Shown here: positions 11,878 through 19,751 of the stretch, piece by piece
Layout of the letters: each line of letters begins with the position of its first letter
Numbering within the stretch: the first letter of the stretch is position 1
Assembly: GCA_003116855.1 (NCBI GenBank)
Contig: BEWT01000006.1
Span: 1-64,000 of the forward strand
Length of the DNA stretch: 64,000 bases
From: Desulfurococcaceae archaeon AG1
GTDB lineage: Archaea; Thermoproteota; Thermoprotei_A; Sulfolobales; AG1
Reading direction: 5' to 3'
Translations under genes and position numbers: made by a program
The notes under the pieces: generated by a model
What the model saw: the letters and a program-made list of their open reading frames with translations, nothing else
Databases searched by the model: none
What the model was told of the DNA's origin: nothing

Positions 11878-12492
11878 TTGAAGGACAATGCCTCCATAAC
11901 CAGGGGGTTCAGGAACTCAGCCATATTGCTGGTGGTGTGGATAGCAATCTATCTAATAATAAGCGCATCGATCAACGGCTACCTCTTACCACTACTAAGC
12001 AGAGGAGGACTGGAGGTCGCACAATACGCACCCTATATAAACATAATCCTGGCACTAGCCTTTGGCTACATGATAGTAAGAGCACTAGCCAACACTATAT
12101 ACTGGTCCCTCAGGGCTAGGTACGAACATTCTCAAGCATCTGCTGTAAGGAGCGTTATGATTATAATAGGTATAGGCGCCCTCCTAGCAGGAATCGCTGG
12201 AGGAGTTGCCGGAGGAGCTGCTGGCGTAGCCCTCGGAGGCTTCCTAGGAATCGTGATCGGCTTCGCATCACAACAAGTCCTAGGCCAGGCTGTGGCAGGG
12301 CTCTTCCTACTACTAGCCAGACCCGTGTCGATAGGAGATAGAGTAACAATAGCAGGCGAGACAGGGGTTGTTGATGACATATCACCACTATTCATAAAAA
12401 TAAAGAAAGACGACGGGACATTAATGCTTATACCAAATAACATGGCCATAGGCGCAAAAATACAGATTATAAAGAGACATGAAGAAACCTAG
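11878..12492 (+). CDS. Minimal MscS-type mechanosensitive channel
   Basis: 204 residues from a TTG. There are two N-terminal membrane helices (about 12-34 and 50-72), then a glycine/alanine-rich pore helix (GIAGGVAGGAAGVALGG, near 104-120) continuing into GFASQQVLGQAVAGLFLLL. The MscS beta domain follows, with RPVSIGDRVTI and the IPNN motif. The protein stops right after the beta domain, so the C-terminal alpha/beta cage of E. coli MscS (286 residues) is missing. Expected role: release of solutes on hypo-osmotic shock across the archaeal membrane. The 3' end faces the mini-FdrA gene of the opposite operon 13 bp away. Confidence 0.85.
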   Translation: MKDNASITRGFRNSAILLVVWIAIYLIISASINGYLLPLLSRGGLEVAQYAPYINIILALAFGYMIVRALANTIYWSLRARYEHSQASAVRSVMIIIGIGALLAGIAGGVAGGAAGVALGGFLGIVIGFASQQVLGQAVAGLFLLLARPVSIGDRVTIAGETGVVDDISPLFIKIKKDDGTLMLIPNNMAIGAKIQIIKRHEET

Positions 12493-12505: not shown

Positions 12506-12682
12506 TCACATGATCTTTGATAAGATCTCCTCGAGATCTTTCTCAAGCCTCTCCCTAGGCCTCCACGAAACATGTATAACCCTCACACCCTGCCTAGCAA
12601 GCTCCCTCGAGAAATGCTCAAGCCCAATGCTAACCAGCCTTGGCTTCCCCCTAAGCAGATCCAATGCCTTCTCAACACCCAT
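12506..12682 (-). CDS. Small FdrA-domain protein (58 residues)
   Basis: From an ATG at 12682 the frame gives MGVEKALDLLRGKPRLVSIG, then LEHFSRELARQGVRVIHVSW, then RPRERLEKDLEEILSKIM and a stop. The core 'IG(L/V)E.F...L..QG..V..V.WRP' is typical of the short 'FdrA domain' proteins encoded beside full-length FdrA in many anaerobes. It starts 3 nt after the stop of the large FdrA gene, so it is the last gene of that operon. It probably forms a small subunit or swivel piece of the FdrA complex; the exact role is not established. Confidence 0.8.
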   Translation of the reverse strand: MGVEKALDLLRGKPRLVSIGLEHFSRELARQGVRVIHVSWRPRERLEKDLEEILSKIM

Positions 12683-12684
12683 GC

Positions 12685-14298
12685 CTAAAACCCCCTGAGA
12701 AACTCCCTAGAGAATATGTCTATCAAACCAGTATCACTTCTCCTCAGAGAGATCATAGCAGCGGCGAGAGCCATGGTAGCGTTTGTTGGGAGGATTATAA
12801 CGCCGAGCTCTCTTAGAACCCTCTCCTGGGATGCTAGATCCTGGGGATCCTGATCCGTACCAACAACATGGGCTAGAAAAACAATCCTCCTACCATTTTC
12901 CCTAGCAATCTCCATAGCCCTCTTAATAGCATCCACATGAACCCCAGCAGGATCTCTATGGGCTCCATAGCCTAGGACAAAGTCAAGCATGATCACAGCT
13001 ACCTCAGGATCTCTTGCTTCATCAACGATTCTCTTAAGCCTAATACTAGGATCTATCATTGGGTGAGCCCTCCCCTCGGTGAACTCCTCACCCCCAAGAT
13101 CTATAACCGTGTTCCCATAGCTCTTCCAAGGATCCCGTAGCCTCAGATCATCCCTCAAGGGCGAGTTAGACCAAATGTCGCCAACAAACCTGCTGAGAAT
13201 AACCATAGCCTCATAGGCAAACGTGCCTCCAGTGAAGAGACCCCTAATATATCTCTGCTCCTCTCTAAGCCCTGCAATAGCATCCTCTATAGCTTTGAGG
13301 ATTTTACCATCAATACTAAGGATCTTTTGAGCCTCACTATATAGGCTTGGATCAGTGATCCTAGCAGCCTCAAGGACAGCTGCATGTAGGGTTCTCGTCT
13401 GAACGATCCTCTTGCTAGCCTCTGGATCTAGAGTCTCTATCTCCCCGCCAACAAGGCATGTCACATAGCTCTTCCTACCCCTCGACGCTATATAATCAAA
13501 GATCATACGCTGGATCTCCCTAGAAGGGGGTTTGGAGATTATAGTCACAATGGATGTCCCAGGATCATTCTCGAACACGTCGATCGAGAACAACGTCATA
13601 AGACCCCCCACCTCTCTGCTAAGATCCCTACCACCAACACCAATACCGTGTGAAACACCCAACCCGATCCTGTGGAGAAGAACACTCACCTCCTGAAGCC
13701 CTGTACCAGAAGCCGAGATCACCCCTACAGAGCCTCTCCTAACAGCATTGGCGAAAGCTATTGCAACACCACCAATTATAGAAGTCCCAGCCTCTGGACC
13801 CATTAGGAGGAGGCCCTTCTCGTAGGCGTATCTCTTCATAGCAACCTCATCCTCTATAGGCACATGGTCGCTGAATAGGTGCACATGAACCCCTCTCTCT
13901 AGGAGCTTCATAACAACCTCTCTAGCATATCTACCTGGGATCGAGACCAGGGCTAGGTTTATATCTCTGTTTATATTGAGAGCTAGATCTAGATCCTCAT
14001 ATACCTCTAGACCCCTAGCCCCGGGCTGTGTGAGCAGCTCTTCCACAAGCCTCGATATATGGTCTATATCGGCATTATCCCCAAGCTTGAGAGCAACGAT
14101 CAGATCGTTTTCTCCAGCGTCTTCACCCTCGCTTGTTAGAAATCCCTCTCTAAGCATTAGATCCTTGTTAAGCCTGGTACCCATGGCTATAAAGGCGTCT
14201 ATAACACCGCTAACCTTTCTCAGCTCCTCGCCAATGTGGAGTAAATATACGGAATCCCTGTAAAGACCCTTCTTAACAATATTAATAACTCTAGGCAT
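12685..14298 (-). CDS. FdrA-like protein (succinyl-CoA-ligase-fold carbamoyl/acyl transferase)
   Basis: 537 residues from ATG 14298; a longer frame from 14358 would overlap the upstream cyclase gene by 50 bp and is less likely. The N-domain shows a CoA-binding-like fold (SIPGRYAREVVMKLLERGV; LMGPEAGTSIIGG). SASGTGLQEVSVLLHRIGLG resembles the SucD 'S.SGTL..E' site. The C-domain carries IDLGGEEFTEGRAHPMIDP and LDFVLGYGAH. FdrA of E. coli works with YlbE/YlbF in anaerobic allantoin use (oxamate-carbamoyl chemistry). No DUF1116 (YlbE) partner is visible in this window. It lies between a cyclase-family hydrolase and a small FdrA protein, so a ureide- or carbamoyl-related pathway is likely but the substrate is unknown. 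Confidence 0.8.
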   Translation of the reverse strand: MPRVINIVKKGLYRDSVYLLHIGEELRKVSGVIDAFIAMGTRLNKDLMLREGFLTSEGEDAGENDLIVALKLGDNADIDHISRLVEELLTQPGARGLEVYEDLDLALNINRDINLALVSIPGRYAREVVMKLLERGVHVHLFSDHVPIEDEVAMKRYAYEKGLLLMGPEAGTSIIGGVAIAFANAVRRGSVGVISASGTGLQEVSVLLHRIGLGVSHGIGVGGRDLSREVGGLMTLFSIDVFENDPGTSIVTIISKPPSREIQRMIFDYIASRGRKSYVTCLVGGEIETLDPEASKRIVQTRTLHAAVLEAARITDPSLYSEAQKILSIDGKILKAIEDAIAGLREEQRYIRGLFTGGTFAYEAMVILSRFVGDIWSNSPLRDDLRLRDPWKSYGNTVIDLGGEEFTEGRAHPMIDPSIRLKRIVDEARDPEVAVIMLDFVLGYGAHRDPAGVHVDAIKRAMEIARENGRRIVFLAHVVGTDQDPQDLASQERVLRELGVIILPTNATMALAAAMISLRRSDTGLIDIFSREFLRGF

Positions 14299-14308
14299 GG
14301 CCCGTAAC

Positions 14309-15202
14309 CTAGTCTGAACAGACAGCAACAAGCCTGCAGAAAGAAGCCTCAGCACCAACGATCTTTACAGGGAAGCCTGCTATCAGACACCTCCTATTAG
14401 CAACCTTATCTATATCGCCACCAGCATTCTCAACATGCAGGATCCCTTTGGGGAATAGGTAGGTGTGCATAAGCTGGTAATTCTCCGGCCACGGCATAAC
14501 CTCGTCAACATCCCTCCCAAACTTCTTCTTAAACTCGTTCACAATATCCTGCCTGATCCTCCTGATCACGGTATTGAGAGGATGATCCTGGGATACAGCG
14601 TCAACAGCGGTCCACCTGATCTTATTCTTGATCAGCCAGTCGGCGAACTCCTTCATAGGGCCTGGGTGTTTCAACATATACCTCACGGGATTAGCCTCAG
14701 CCCTATACCAAGCATACCTATCATAACCAGTCCTTATAACGAGGATATCATAGGGTTTGAGGGAGAGGTTATATGATTTGAGCTTCCTCTCGATCATATC
14801 AGAAGTATAGATATCAAGATCGCTCACCTCATCACTTATATCAACTATAACACCCTCACCTATCCAGTATTCAACAGGGATCGATGCTATATCAAGCCCA
14901 GCAGTGTCAAAGTGAAGCGGGCCATCCATATGCGTCCCTATATGGAATGGTGTCTGAATATACTGAGCATTCACACCATGCTCCTGAACAGTCTTGATCC
15001 ACCTGATCTCGAAGGGGGGATATGTGGGGAAGGGCGGTGTATTAGGACCTAGAGGTTGTGAAAGATCATAGACCTTTGCCTTTGACCAATCAATAACATC
15101 GCTCCAGTTATAGAGAGGCTTCCCCTTAGCCCTTATCTCTGCCAAGAACTCCTCAAGAATATTACCTGGTCTCGGTTTCCACTCACCGAAATATATAGAC
15201 AT
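14309..15202 (-). CDS. Cyclase-family metal-dependent hydrolase
   Basis: 297 residues of the cyclase/kynurenine-formamidase fold. The metal motif FHIGTHMDGPLHF (HxGTHxDxPxH) lies near residues 97-109, and a second site region includes VDAVSQDHPLN. Family members hydrolyse amide or cyclic amide bonds (kynurenine formamidase, isatin hydrolase, relatives). It is the first gene of a leftward operon, 10 bp before the FdrA-like gene, so its product probably supplies or consumes the FdrA substrate. Start: ATG at 15202, 190 bp from the divergent tes gene. Confidence 0.85.
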   Translation of the reverse strand: MSIYFGEWKPRPGNILEEFLAEIRAKGKPLYNWSDVIDWSKAKVYDLSQPLGPNTPPFPTYPPFEIRWIKTVQEHGVNAQYIQTPFHIGTHMDGPLHFDTAGLDIASIPVEYWIGEGVIVDISDEVSDLDIYTSDMIERKLKSYNLSLKPYDILVIRTGYDRYAWYRAEANPVRYMLKHPGPMKEFADWLIKNKIRWTAVDAVSQDHPLNTVIRRIRQDIVNEFKKKFGRDVDEVMPWPENYQLMHTYLFPKGILHVENAGGDIDKVANRRCLIAGFPVKIVGAEASFCRLVAVCSD

Positions 15203-15393: not shown

Positions 15394-17241
15394 ATGCCGA
15401 TCGAGAACCTATTCCAAGTGACCGGTTCGGCCATAAAAAATGAGGCTAGCACCCATCACAGGGCTGCTACAATGCAGCTAGCTAAAGCCCTTCCATCTCC
15501 TGGAAAGTTTGATCCCTTGACAGGCACTGTGAAAATCGCTGGGAGGGAGATAAAGGTAGGAGGACCTCTTCCAAGCCTGGCTGAGGGCGAGAAACTGGTA
15601 AGGGTTACCCAGAGCCTCTGCCCATACTGTCAGAGGCTGCTTCCAGCAGTGATCTATGAGAGGGATGATAAGATATATCTAAGGAAAATATGCCCTGACC
15701 ATGGTAGCATAGACGAGCTTTACTTCGGCAACTCATACCTATACTACAAGTTCCTCTCAAAAGGCGTTGATGGTAAGGGGGCTAGGTATACATATACTGT
15801 AGCAGACGCCCCGTGTCCCTATAGCTGTGGACTATGCTCAATGCATGTGAGCCATTCAGCGTTAACCAACCTTGTTATCACAAATAGATGCGATCTTGAC
15901 TGCTGGTACTGCTTCTTCTTCGCTGAGAAGGCAGGATATGTTTATGAACCAACAATAGATCAGATCAAGTTCATGGTATCGCAGCTAATGAAACAGGGCG
16001 TTGCCACAGTGATCCAGATAACAGGTGGAGAGCCCACAATAAGAGAAGATCTACCACAGATCGTTAGAGAACTGAGAGCAATGGGTGTAACCCACATACA
16101 GCTAAACACACACGGAATAACATTTGCAAAGCTCTTCCACAAAGACCCAGACCTAGCCGTAAAATATGCTAGAGAGCTTAGAGAGGCTGGCGTCAATACC
16201 ATATACATGAGCTTCGACGGCGTCACACCACAAACCAATCCTAAGAACCACTATGAGGTTCCATTCACATTCGAAGTCTTCAGAAAAGCTGGGATGACCA
16301 GCGTAGTGCTTGTCCCAGTAGCAATAAAGTCTGTCAACGACCACGTATTCGGCGATATAATAAGGTTTGCAGCGAAGAACATGGATATAGTGAGAGCCGT
16401 TAACTTCCAGCCCGTAAGCCTCACCGGAATGATGAAGAGGTTCGAAAGGGAGAGGTATAGAATAACCATAGCAGACGCAATAATAAAGATAGAGGAGCAG
16501 ACAAACGGGCAGATTGATAGAGACTCGTGGTTCCCAGTACCAGCCTGTGTACCTATATCAGAATTCGCAGAAGCCCTCTCAGGCAAGTTTAAGTTCGAAA
16601 TGACATGCCACCCGCACTGCGGTGCCGGAAGCTATGTCTATGTTGTTAGAAAAGGATCTTCTGCCTATGACTACGAGTTCATCCCGCTAAGCAAAATGAT
16701 CGATCTCGAAGGTTTCCTTGAATACCTCCACCAGAAGAGCGAGGAACTGAGAGAGGGTAGGAGCAAGATACTGACAGGCTTAGGTCTTGCATGGAATGCC
16801 GTGACCAAGTTCATAAACTGGGAGAACGTGCCAGGAGAGATAAAGAAGATGCTTCCAAAAATGATCGTAGATATATTTGTCAAGCAGAGCTACGAGGCTC
16901 TCGGCGAGTTCCACTACAAGTTCCTCTTCCTAGGCATGATGCACTTCATGGACCAGTATAACTACGATGTAGAAAGGGTAATGAGGTGCGACATACACTA
17001 CACAATGCCCGACGGAAGAGTAGTACCCTTCTGCGCCTTCAACGTCCTGCCAGATATCTATAGGGATTATGTGCAGAAGCAATACTCAATGAGCTTTGAG
17101 GAGTATGAGAAGAAATACGGTCCCGGCAGGATCGGCGAGGTTATGAAGTTCAGAAGAACAAGGGACTATCTAGAAATGGTTAAGAAGCACCCGATATACC
17201 TAAGCCACTATCAGGAGTTCTTAAAAACAGATAGAAAGTAG
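15394..17241 (+). CDS. tes: Radical SAM tetraether lipid synthase (Tes)
   Basis: 615 residues matching the MJ0619/Tes family, which joins phytanyl chains of archaeol lipids to make tetraether (GDGT) membranes. Order of features: an N-terminal Cys-rich domain (CPYCQR near residue 73, CPDHGS near 100), a second Cys group (CPYSCGLCSMH), and the radical SAM motif C166-x3-C170-x2-C173 (CDLDCWYC). ITGGEPTIRED follows, and later cysteines (CVPIS, CHPHCG, and a final MRCDIHY/CAFN region) probably bind auxiliary clusters. A strong upstream TATA box and a stand-alone position suggest its own transcription unit. Tetraether lipids fit a hyperthermophile. The family call is strong; activity is inferred. 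Confidence 0.85.
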   Translation: MPIENLFQVTGSAIKNEASTHHRAATMQLAKALPSPGKFDPLTGTVKIAGREIKVGGPLPSLAEGEKLVRVTQSLCPYCQRLLPAVIYERDDKIYLRKICPDHGSIDELYFGNSYLYYKFLSKGVDGKGARYTYTVADAPCPYSCGLCSMHVSHSALTNLVITNRCDLDCWYCFFFAEKAGYVYEPTIDQIKFMVSQLMKQGVATVIQITGGEPTIREDLPQIVRELRAMGVTHIQLNTHGITFAKLFHKDPDLAVKYARELREAGVNTIYMSFDGVTPQTNPKNHYEVPFTFEVFRKAGMTSVVLVPVAIKSVNDHVFGDIIRFAAKNMDIVRAVNFQPVSLTGMMKRFERERYRITIADAIIKIEEQTNGQIDRDSWFPVPACVPISEFAEALSGKFKFEMTCHPHCGAGSYVYVVRKGSSAYDYEFIPLSKMIDLEGFLEYLHQKSEELREGRSKILTGLGLAWNAVTKFINWENVPGEIKKMLPKMIVDIFVKQSYEALGEFHYKFLFLGMMHFMDQYNYDVERVMRCDIHYTMPDGRVVPFCAFNVLPDIYRDYVQKQYSMSFEEYEKKYGPGRIGEVMKFRRTRDYLEMVKKHPIYLSHYQEFLKTDRK

Positions 17242-18578: not shown

Positions 18579-19751
18579 GTGATTTTAGAAAGTAGTAGCG
18601 ATTCCGACGGCCATATTATCGATAGATTTGGAAGACCATTCACGATAATGAGAATAAGCATAACCCATGACTGCAATTTCAAATGCTTCTTCTGCCACAT
18701 GGAGGGAGAGGACCCGTCATCGAAGAGCTACCTAACACCAGAGGAAATAGGAATGGTTGCAGAGGCAGCATCAAGACTAGGCGTTAGGAGGTTTAAGATA
18801 ACAGGGGGTGAGCCAACAATAAGAAGAGATCTGCCAGAGATAATAAAAGAGATCAAGGAGAAAGGCAGGGCTGAAGATATATCGATGACAACAAACGGGG
18901 TGCTTCTGAGAAACATGGCCACAAAGCTTAGAGAGGCCGGGCTGGATAGAGTTAATATAAGTCTCCACTCACTAGATCCGGAGAAGTTCTACCAGATCAC
19001 AGGAACAAAACTTATGGATAGAGTGCTCGAAGGAGTTGACGCCGCTATAAGTGCTGGTTTCAAGCAGATCAAGATCAACATGGTTATACTCAAAAACTTC
19101 AACGAAGACGATGTATGGAGATTAATAGACTTTGTGAGGGGGAAGAAAATAGTGCTACAACTCATAGAGCTCCACCCAGTGGGTGAGGGAAGAAAGATCT
19201 TCACGCGGTTCCACACATTCCTAGACGATGTTGAGGAGAAGCTCTCAAAGATCTCAAAGATGAGGATCCGGAAGGAGCTTCACAACAGACCAATATACTA
19301 CCTAGAAGGAGGAGGAGCTGTAGAGATAGTTAGGCCTGTGAAGAACCCCATATTCTGTGCAGCATGCACAAGAATAAGGCTCACTGCAGATGGCTATCTA
19401 AAACCATGTCTTGTTAGGAATGATAACCTAGTATCTATAAAGGAGATCCTTAGAATGGATATCGATAGAGAGAGGAAAATAGAGATGCTAATAGAAGCCC
19501 TGCTCATAGCCAACTCACGTAGAGAGCCCTCAGCATACTGGAGGATAGGTGAGGAGTTTGAGAGAGAAGTTCATAGATATCTTGGCAACGGAGCGTTAGC
19601 AGACGGAACCAGAAGGATAAGGATCTCTATTCCCAAGAAGCCCCAGCCAAACATAAGGTTTGTGGACATGCCGATACCGATCGCGCTAAATAGTACTGCT
19701 ACCGCTAGGGTTAATACTGGTTATAAGTATAAAATAGAGGATTTATTATAA
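18579..19751 (+). CDS. moaA: GTP 3',8-cyclase MoaA (molybdenum/tungsten cofactor)
   Basis: 390 residues. The N-terminal radical SAM motif CNFKCFFC (C32, C36, C39), ITGGEPTIRRDL and the C-terminal second cluster CAACTRIRLTADGYLKPC (from about residue 261) identify MoaA, which turns GTP into the first pterin precursor of the W/Mo cofactor. The protein is longer than typical MoaA (~330) and ends in a ~60-residue extension after the usual C-terminal region; the terminal GG used by classical MoaA is not visible. Starts with GTG. No other moa gene is nearby. Tungsten/Mo cofactor use agrees with the possible AOR relic at 3359-3508. Confidence 0.85.
   Translation: MILESSSDSDGHIIDRFGRPFTIMRISITHDCNFKCFFCHMEGEDPSSKSYLTPEEIGMVAEAASRLGVRRFKITGGEPTIRRDLPEIIKEIKEKGRAEDISMTTNGVLLRNMATKLREAGLDRVNISLHSLDPEKFYQITGTKLMDRVLEGVDAAISAGFKQIKINMVILKNFNEDDVWRLIDFVRGKKIVLQLIELHPVGEGRKIFTRFHTFLDDVEEKLSKISKMRIRKELHNRPIYYLEGGGAVEIVRPVKNPIFCAACTRIRLTADGYLKPCLVRNDNLVSIKEILRMDIDRERKIEMLIEALLIANSRREPSAYWRIGEEFEREVHRYLGNGALADGTRRIRISIPKKPQPNIRFVDMPIPIALNSTATARVNTGYKYKIEDLL

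Follow-up and report, generated by a model that had tools for sequence, protein, structure and literature searches.

An AllFGH-type locus in two places in an archaeon, with a separately encoded AllF tail and a probable link to nucleobase use

Oxidative degradation of pyrimidines proceeds through uracil dehydrogenase, an AtzD-type barbiturase and ureidomalonase, the last acting by hydrolysis to urea. The AllFGH complex of Escherichia coli has measured oxamic transcarbamylase activity, interconverting oxalurate and phosphate with oxamate and carbamoyl phosphate, and the carbamate kinase AllK uses carbamoyl phosphate to make ATP (PMC11326118). Genes for AllFGHK have also been reported in nitrifying archaea and interpreted as serving oxalurate use (PMC12625717). 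A further described system, the reductive uric-acid pathway, combines a molybdenum (Mo) hydroxylase, a carbamoyltransferase and a carbamate kinase, with YgeW making the carbamoyl phosphate (PMC12507026).

The window analysed here is a 64,000-nucleotide stretch of Desulfurococcaceae archaeon AG1, on contig C6 of an archaeal genome of 28 contigs (2.0 Mb, 94.8% complete). It carries three genes that the original prediction read as a reduced, archaeal carbamoyl-transfer operon. We consider it fairly probable that the window holds one half of an AllFGH-type locus lying in two places, which would produce carbamoyl phosphate and ATP from the ring-opened product of a nucleobase.

The window genes and their partners on a second contig

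As predicted, the three reading frames are intact, tightly spaced and all on the minus strand, and their coordinates are those first proposed. They are listed here with their two neighbours:

14309-15202, minus strand: cyclase-family (PF04199) metal-dependent hydrolase, 297 residues (PF04199, E = 4.8e-34)
12685-14298, minus strand: AllF/FdrA body, 537 residues, ATG start (NF004760, E = 1.4e-126, profile positions 4-492 of 555)
12506-12682, minus strand: AllF tail, a separate gene for 58 residues (NF004760 positions 503-554)
11878-12492, plus strand: mechanosensitive-channel gene, neighbour of the three-gene set
15394-17241, plus strand: radical SAM protein gene, neighbour of the three-gene set

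Because the cyclase and AllF genes are separated by only 10 nt, and AllF and the 58-residue reading frame by 2 nt, the three are likely to form an operon. An alternative TTG start for AllF at 14358 would run into the cyclase gene and is not needed. The FdrA-type protein of the original prediction is real: its body scores 423 bits against NF004760, slightly below the model cut-off of 433, and is 35% identical to E. coli AllF over 519 residues, and the family profile matches the E. coli FdrA crystal chain 3dmy (E = 7.4e-102). Elsewhere in the window, a MoaA-type molybdenum cofactor synthesis gene (18579-19751) lies 3.4 kb from the cyclase gene on the opposite strand, which may be a coincidence.

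Apart from the cyclase gene, no PF04199 gene was found in the genome. Cyclases linked to AllF constitute one family; those of archaea, Clostridia and Chloroflexota share 43–77% identity with the window protein. Invariant in a 40-member alignment are H87, G89, T90, H91, D93, H97, D201, D206, H207, H246, H256 and E258, including the metal-site motif HxGTHxDxxxH, which 59 of 60 linked cyclases keep. The top structural matches of an AlphaFold2 model (pLDDT 87.9) are isatin hydrolases (Z 22.9, 229 residues aligned, 3.5 Å), with other cyclases such as kynurenine formamidase close to it as well (Z 20–21). The enzyme is thus predicted, from its modelled fold, to be an isatin-hydrolase-like hydrolase that opens the ring of a cyclic amide or imide.

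The system had been described as lacking its DUF1116 partner, with the cyclic-amide hydrolase in that place. This lack holds for the window only. A genome-wide search for DUF1116, YlbF and carbamate kinase, as suggested with the prediction, found AllG, AllH and a carbamate kinase on contig C13, in a locus (L003) that corresponds to C13:72000-90000:

C13:80481-81140 (L003:8134-9426), minus strand: AllG, DUF1116 (PF06545, E = 5.5e-92)
C13:79270-79581 (L003:7181-7954), minus strand: AllH, DUF2877 (PF11392, E = 1.3e-16; 62 bits, above the cut-off of 25)
C13:77936-78859 (L003:5919-6866), plus strand: carbamate kinase (E = 2.8e-107)
L003:9423-13139, minus strand: small, medium and large subunits of a xanthine-dehydrogenase-like Mo hydroxylase, next to AllG

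Profile matches therefore place all three oxamic transcarbamylase subunits, AllF, AllG and AllH, in this genome; with the carbamate kinase, they are 35%, 44%, 29% and 40% identical to E. coli AllF, AllG, AllH and AllK, respectively. The kinase scores 358.2 bits against TIGR00746 (cut-off 358.25) and lies above the cut-off for NF009007. It is followed in the locus by AllH, AllG and the Mo hydroxylase subunits; beyond these come two ABC transporters, of which one includes a binding protein of the BMP type, and a CoA-transferase of family III. The system is accordingly not a reduced one, and the cyclase is an addition to AllG, not its replacement. Nor do the partners lie in an adjacent operon with allantoin genes, the outcome that would have made this the ordinary system; they occupy a different contig, and an allantoin operon was not seen. 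The proposal that ATP could be gained via carbamoyl phosphate is favoured, at the level of sequence, by the carbamate kinase gene adjoining AllH and AllG. In the only genus-mate, cyclase-AllF-tail lie on one contig and Mo hydroxylase-AllG-AllH on another, the AllFGH locus being in two places in both genomes.

The window genome has four genes for Mo-hydroxylase large subunits (C13:83945-84661, C4:153057-153803, C2:71511-72239 and C13:18819-19550), and just the first of these is linked to AllG. The best PDB match of the Mo hydroxylase is 4-hydroxybenzoyl-CoA reductase, but sequence scans of this kind cannot name substrates.

The AllF tail as a separate gene

The 58-residue product had been taken for a second, mini FdrA, a reading that we reject. 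It covers only positions 503-554 of the FdrA profile NF004760, the part absent from the large reading frame, and aligns with the C-terminus of E. coli AllF, of which the window AllF body lacks the C-terminal ~50 residues. A profile built from relatives of the small reading frame and the E. coli C-terminus matches the C-terminal part of 3dmy (E = 1.1e-22); Pfam gave no match for the 58-residue product. Since these matches complement those of the AllF body (profile positions 4-492), the small gene is, by profile comparison, the C-terminal segment of the window AllF encoded apart. A structural model of the tail had low global confidence (pTM 0.42) and was left out of the fold search.

A frameshift or sequencing error could in principle have split one fused fdrA gene, and the window has features of this kind: the tail starts 2 nt past the AllF stop in a different frame, and a GGGGGTTTT run occurs shortly before that stop. 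Against an artefact, the tail is separate in nine of nine same-order genomes with a long AllF, through junctions that vary from overlap of the AllF stop to a 2-nt gap, another frame, or the same frame past more than one stop; it is also separate in 60 of the 80 named loci, spread over archaea, Clostridia and other groups. Recurrence in nine genomes with differing junctions excludes sequencing error, and we regard an artefact as extremely improbable. The E. coli-type architecture, with body and tail in one polypeptide, is absent from the window and from all same-order relatives with a long AllF. The split is a difference of architecture, not a loss.

The 80 named loci were gathered with an archaeal AllF alignment from 84,980 species genomes. 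The tail is its own short reading frame in 60 of them, shares one with AllG in 12, lies in a longer reading frame in two and is fused to AllF, as in E. coli, in one. The bacterial counts come from the 80 loci nearest to the archaeal query, and fused AllF and allantoin-type operons may be under-represented in them. No tail was found in five of the 80, at least two of which are cut by contig ends. A maximum-likelihood tree of AllF, rooted at the midpoint, was built by a quick method and has several long branches. In it, every row of a 38-row group that is almost wholly archaeal has the separate tail, as do most other rows, and this form is likely, as judged from sequence, to be the ancestral state. 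As the tail can stand alone or share a reading frame with either AllF or AllG, we infer that it lies between AllF and AllG.

In most of the collected homologues, then, the enzyme known from E. coli with three subunits has a fourth part encoded by its own gene. This free-standing part is the commonest form in these loci and seems new: in open-access journal papers, we found no mention of a split AllF.

Recurrence of the cluster and its neighbourhood

Among 40 genomes of the same order, AllG is present in eight of the nine with a long AllF and in none of the 31 without (Fisher p about 1e-7, counting genomes as independent despite their kinship). The ninth genome is 87% complete and its contig ends nearby. 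AllG occurs in 19 of 300 genomes of the phylum. A strong carbamate kinase match is found in 17 of the 31 same-order genomes without a long AllF as well, and its presence alone says little because the enzyme is common in the order. Viral contigs that were scanned held no relatives.

The gene set recurs in many genomes, archaeal and bacterial, and chance is excluded. It is not an archaeal version, as had been supposed, because the same cluster is found in Clostridia and Chloroflexota. At one locus (L042), AllG, AllH, cyclase, AllF, tail, ThiS and Mo hydroxylase form a single cluster, and another (L041), also a single cluster, additionally has an NCS2 permease and carbamate kinase. A typical clostridial order, all on one strand, is MoM-MoS-MoL-NCS2-PucR-AllH-AllF-tail-AllG-cyclase (L081, L097, L098). 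In the 43 named loci that extend over 15 kb or more, the neighbours include AllG (43), AllH (38), cyclase (31), the Mo hydroxylase large subunit MoL (30), NCS2 permease (20) and carbamate kinase (11), mainly within 5 kb and mainly on the same strand (23 of 36 for MoL).

Further neighbours bear on uptake, regulation and product handling. BMP nucleoside-type ABC transporters recur near the clusters, and the NCS2 permease tested is closest to xanthine permease, more xanthine-like than uracil-like. The purine-catabolism regulator PucR is found in 24 loci, in Clostridia, where YqeB/YqeC/MocA-like genes also occur. A family III CoA-transferase related to the acetyl-CoA:oxalate CoA-transferase YfdE is present in 15–16 loci, a nitrilase-type C-N hydrolase in seven, and an amidase, a methylmalonyl-CoA decarboxylase alpha-like subunit and a Na+-pumping decarboxylase beta subunit in six each. 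The Na+-pumping decarboxylase of some relatives is not general, since OAD_beta is absent from the window genome.

Other features of these neighbourhoods deserve mention. A conserved protein of ~250 residues (L044:5719-6471 and relatives, 16 loci) is encoded beside AllG or the cyclase gene in archaea and in Chloroflexota; in the latter, a thiolase and an OB-fold protein follow. It appears GNAT-like by eye; no Pfam family scored above cut-off and sequence searches gave no convincing PDB relative. The cultured Lutispora saccharofermentans carries two separate AllF-tail-AllG-cyclase clusters on one contig (L087, L120), with a Mo hydroxylase in just one of them within the stretch examined; these could serve two substrates.

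Substrate, alternatives and known systems

We propose that the AllF body and tail from the window would assemble with AllG and AllH from C13. The Mo hydroxylase encoded beside AllG would oxidise an imported nucleobase, and the cyclase would open the oxidised ring to an N-carbamoyl amide. Phosphorolysis by AllF, tail, AllG and AllH would then release a simple amide acid together with carbamoyl phosphate, from which the carbamate kinase encoded beside AllH would yield ATP, CO2 and NH3. Counting against this scheme are the division of the locus between two places in the window genome and its genus-mate, the four Mo-hydroxylase large-subunit genes, and the frequency of carbamate kinase in the order. 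The cluster offers the uptake, hydroxylation and ring-opening genes to feed AllFGH from a nucleobase, and it probably makes ATP from nucleobases. The carbamoyl-transfer system suggested for this archaeon is thus borne out by AllFGH orthologues and carbamate kinase, without full-length allantoin-pathway genes in the 80 loci, and the different substrate suggested for it is probable given the linked Mo hydroxylase, cyclase and nucleobase transporters.

One alternative is the ordinary oxalurate system, in which AllFGH would act exactly as its E. coli counterpart does and split oxalurate into oxamate and carbamoyl phosphate; the oxalurate would come from allantoin or, as proposed for nitrifiers, from other organisms. 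Orthology to E. coli AllFGHK (35%, 44%, 29% and 40% identity), the interpretation given to allFGHK in nitrifiers (PMC12625717) and the YfdE-related CoA-transferase in 15 loci all speak for it. Yet neither the 80 named loci nor the own-phylum loci contain a full-length match to E. coli AllB, AllC, AllD or AllE; the sole hit is a truncated amidohydrolase, 29% identical, where the contig of L070 ends. Just one of the 80 has an oxalyl-CoA decarboxylase homologue, and the window genome has no allantoinase above cut-off (best 104 of 358 bits). This reading would also leave the linked Mo hydroxylase and cyclase unexplained, and we consider it unlikely.

A purine route, with the Mo hydroxylase acting on hypoxanthine, xanthine or urate and the cyclase opening a purine-derived ring, would account for the xanthine-type permease, the XdhA-like large subunit, PucR and the clostridial YqeB/YqeC/MocA-like genes. 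It would parallel the reductive uric-acid pathway, which likewise joins a Mo hydroxylase, a carbamoyltransferase and a carbamate kinase (PMC12507026). Searches of the 80 loci are at odds with it: SsnA, YgfK, YgeX and YgeY gave no blastp match at 1e-10, and HyuA just the partial 29% match. Moreover, we know of no purine intermediate that a cyclase-family enzyme opens to an N-carbamoyl amide in one step. This route, too, seems to us unlikely.

For the nucleobase reading that we favour, the most economical substrate would be ureidomalonate, formed from uracil via barbiturate, because ureidomalonate (N-carbamoyl malonamate) equals oxalurate plus one CH2. The Mo hydroxylase would convert uracil or thymine to barbiturate or methylbarbiturate, the cyclase would open barbiturate to ureidomalonate, and phosphorolysis would release malonamate and carbamoyl phosphate. 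Linked amidases or nitrilase, CoA-transferases and decarboxylases of the malonate or methylmalonyl-CoA type may handle malonamate and malonate. The strongest individual hint of malonate as the final product is a malonate decarboxylase alpha subunit (L131:1263-2891; TIGR01110, 735 bits). Its gene lies immediately ahead of a Mo hydroxylase-AllH-AllF-tail-AllG-cyclase cluster (L131:3029-14789). Three findings run counter: malonate decarboxylase occurs at this one locus only, the CoA-transferases resemble oxalate CoA-transferases about equally well, and the permease tested looks more xanthine-like than uracil-like. PF09663 (AtzD-type barbiturase) has no match in the window genome or in any control genome. 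We put forward only tentatively, as a single joint reading, that a widespread anaerobic, energy-conserving pyrimidine pathway uses a four-part AllF-body/AllF-tail/AllG/AllH enzyme and carbamate kinase to make ATP, in which the free tail would be an original fourth subunit and the fused E. coli form a derived one.

In the literature covered, AllFGH was not found linked to a cyclase-family enzyme, barbiturate or ureidomalonate, and the widespread Mo-hydroxylase/cyclase/AllFGH/carbamate-kinase cluster seems new. AllFGH is thereby placed in a nucleobase-linked cluster of anaerobic and thermophilic microbes of which we found no description, and the route from nucleobases through carbamoyl phosphate to ATP would be a little-known one that can be tested.

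Relative to E. coli AllFGH and AllK (PMC11326118), orthologues of all subunits and of the carbamate kinase are present and the phosphorolytic, carbamoyl-transfer chemistry is presumed to be shared, whereas the AllF body and tail come from separate genes and the locus lies in two places. The allantoinase, AllC, AllD and AllE of the E. coli anaerobic allantoin pathway have no full-length match in the 80 and own-phylum loci, with Mo hydroxylase, cyclase and nucleobase transporters linked instead. The reductive uric-acid pathway (XdhD, YgfK, SsnA, HyuA, YgeW, YqeA, YgeY and YgeX; PMC12507026) has a similar working scheme of Mo hydroxylase, ring opening, carbamoyl phosphate and carbamate kinase, but the transcarbamylase here is of the unrelated AllFGH kind, and SsnA, YgfK, YgeX and YgeY are missing from the clusters. 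The window cyclase shares its modelled fold (Z 22.9 to isatin hydrolase) and metal motif HxGTHxDxxxH with the isatin hydrolase/kynurenine formamidase branch of PF04199; it is about 20% identical to isatin hydrolase over the structural alignment and belongs to its own conserved family tied to AllF. With the oxidative pyrimidine pathway, the proposed route would have its first two steps in common, uracil hydroxylation and barbiturate opening; a cyclase-family enzyme would take the place of the AtzD-type barbiturase as ring opener, and the route would end in phosphorolysis, giving carbamoyl phosphate, where the known pathway ends in hydrolysis to urea.
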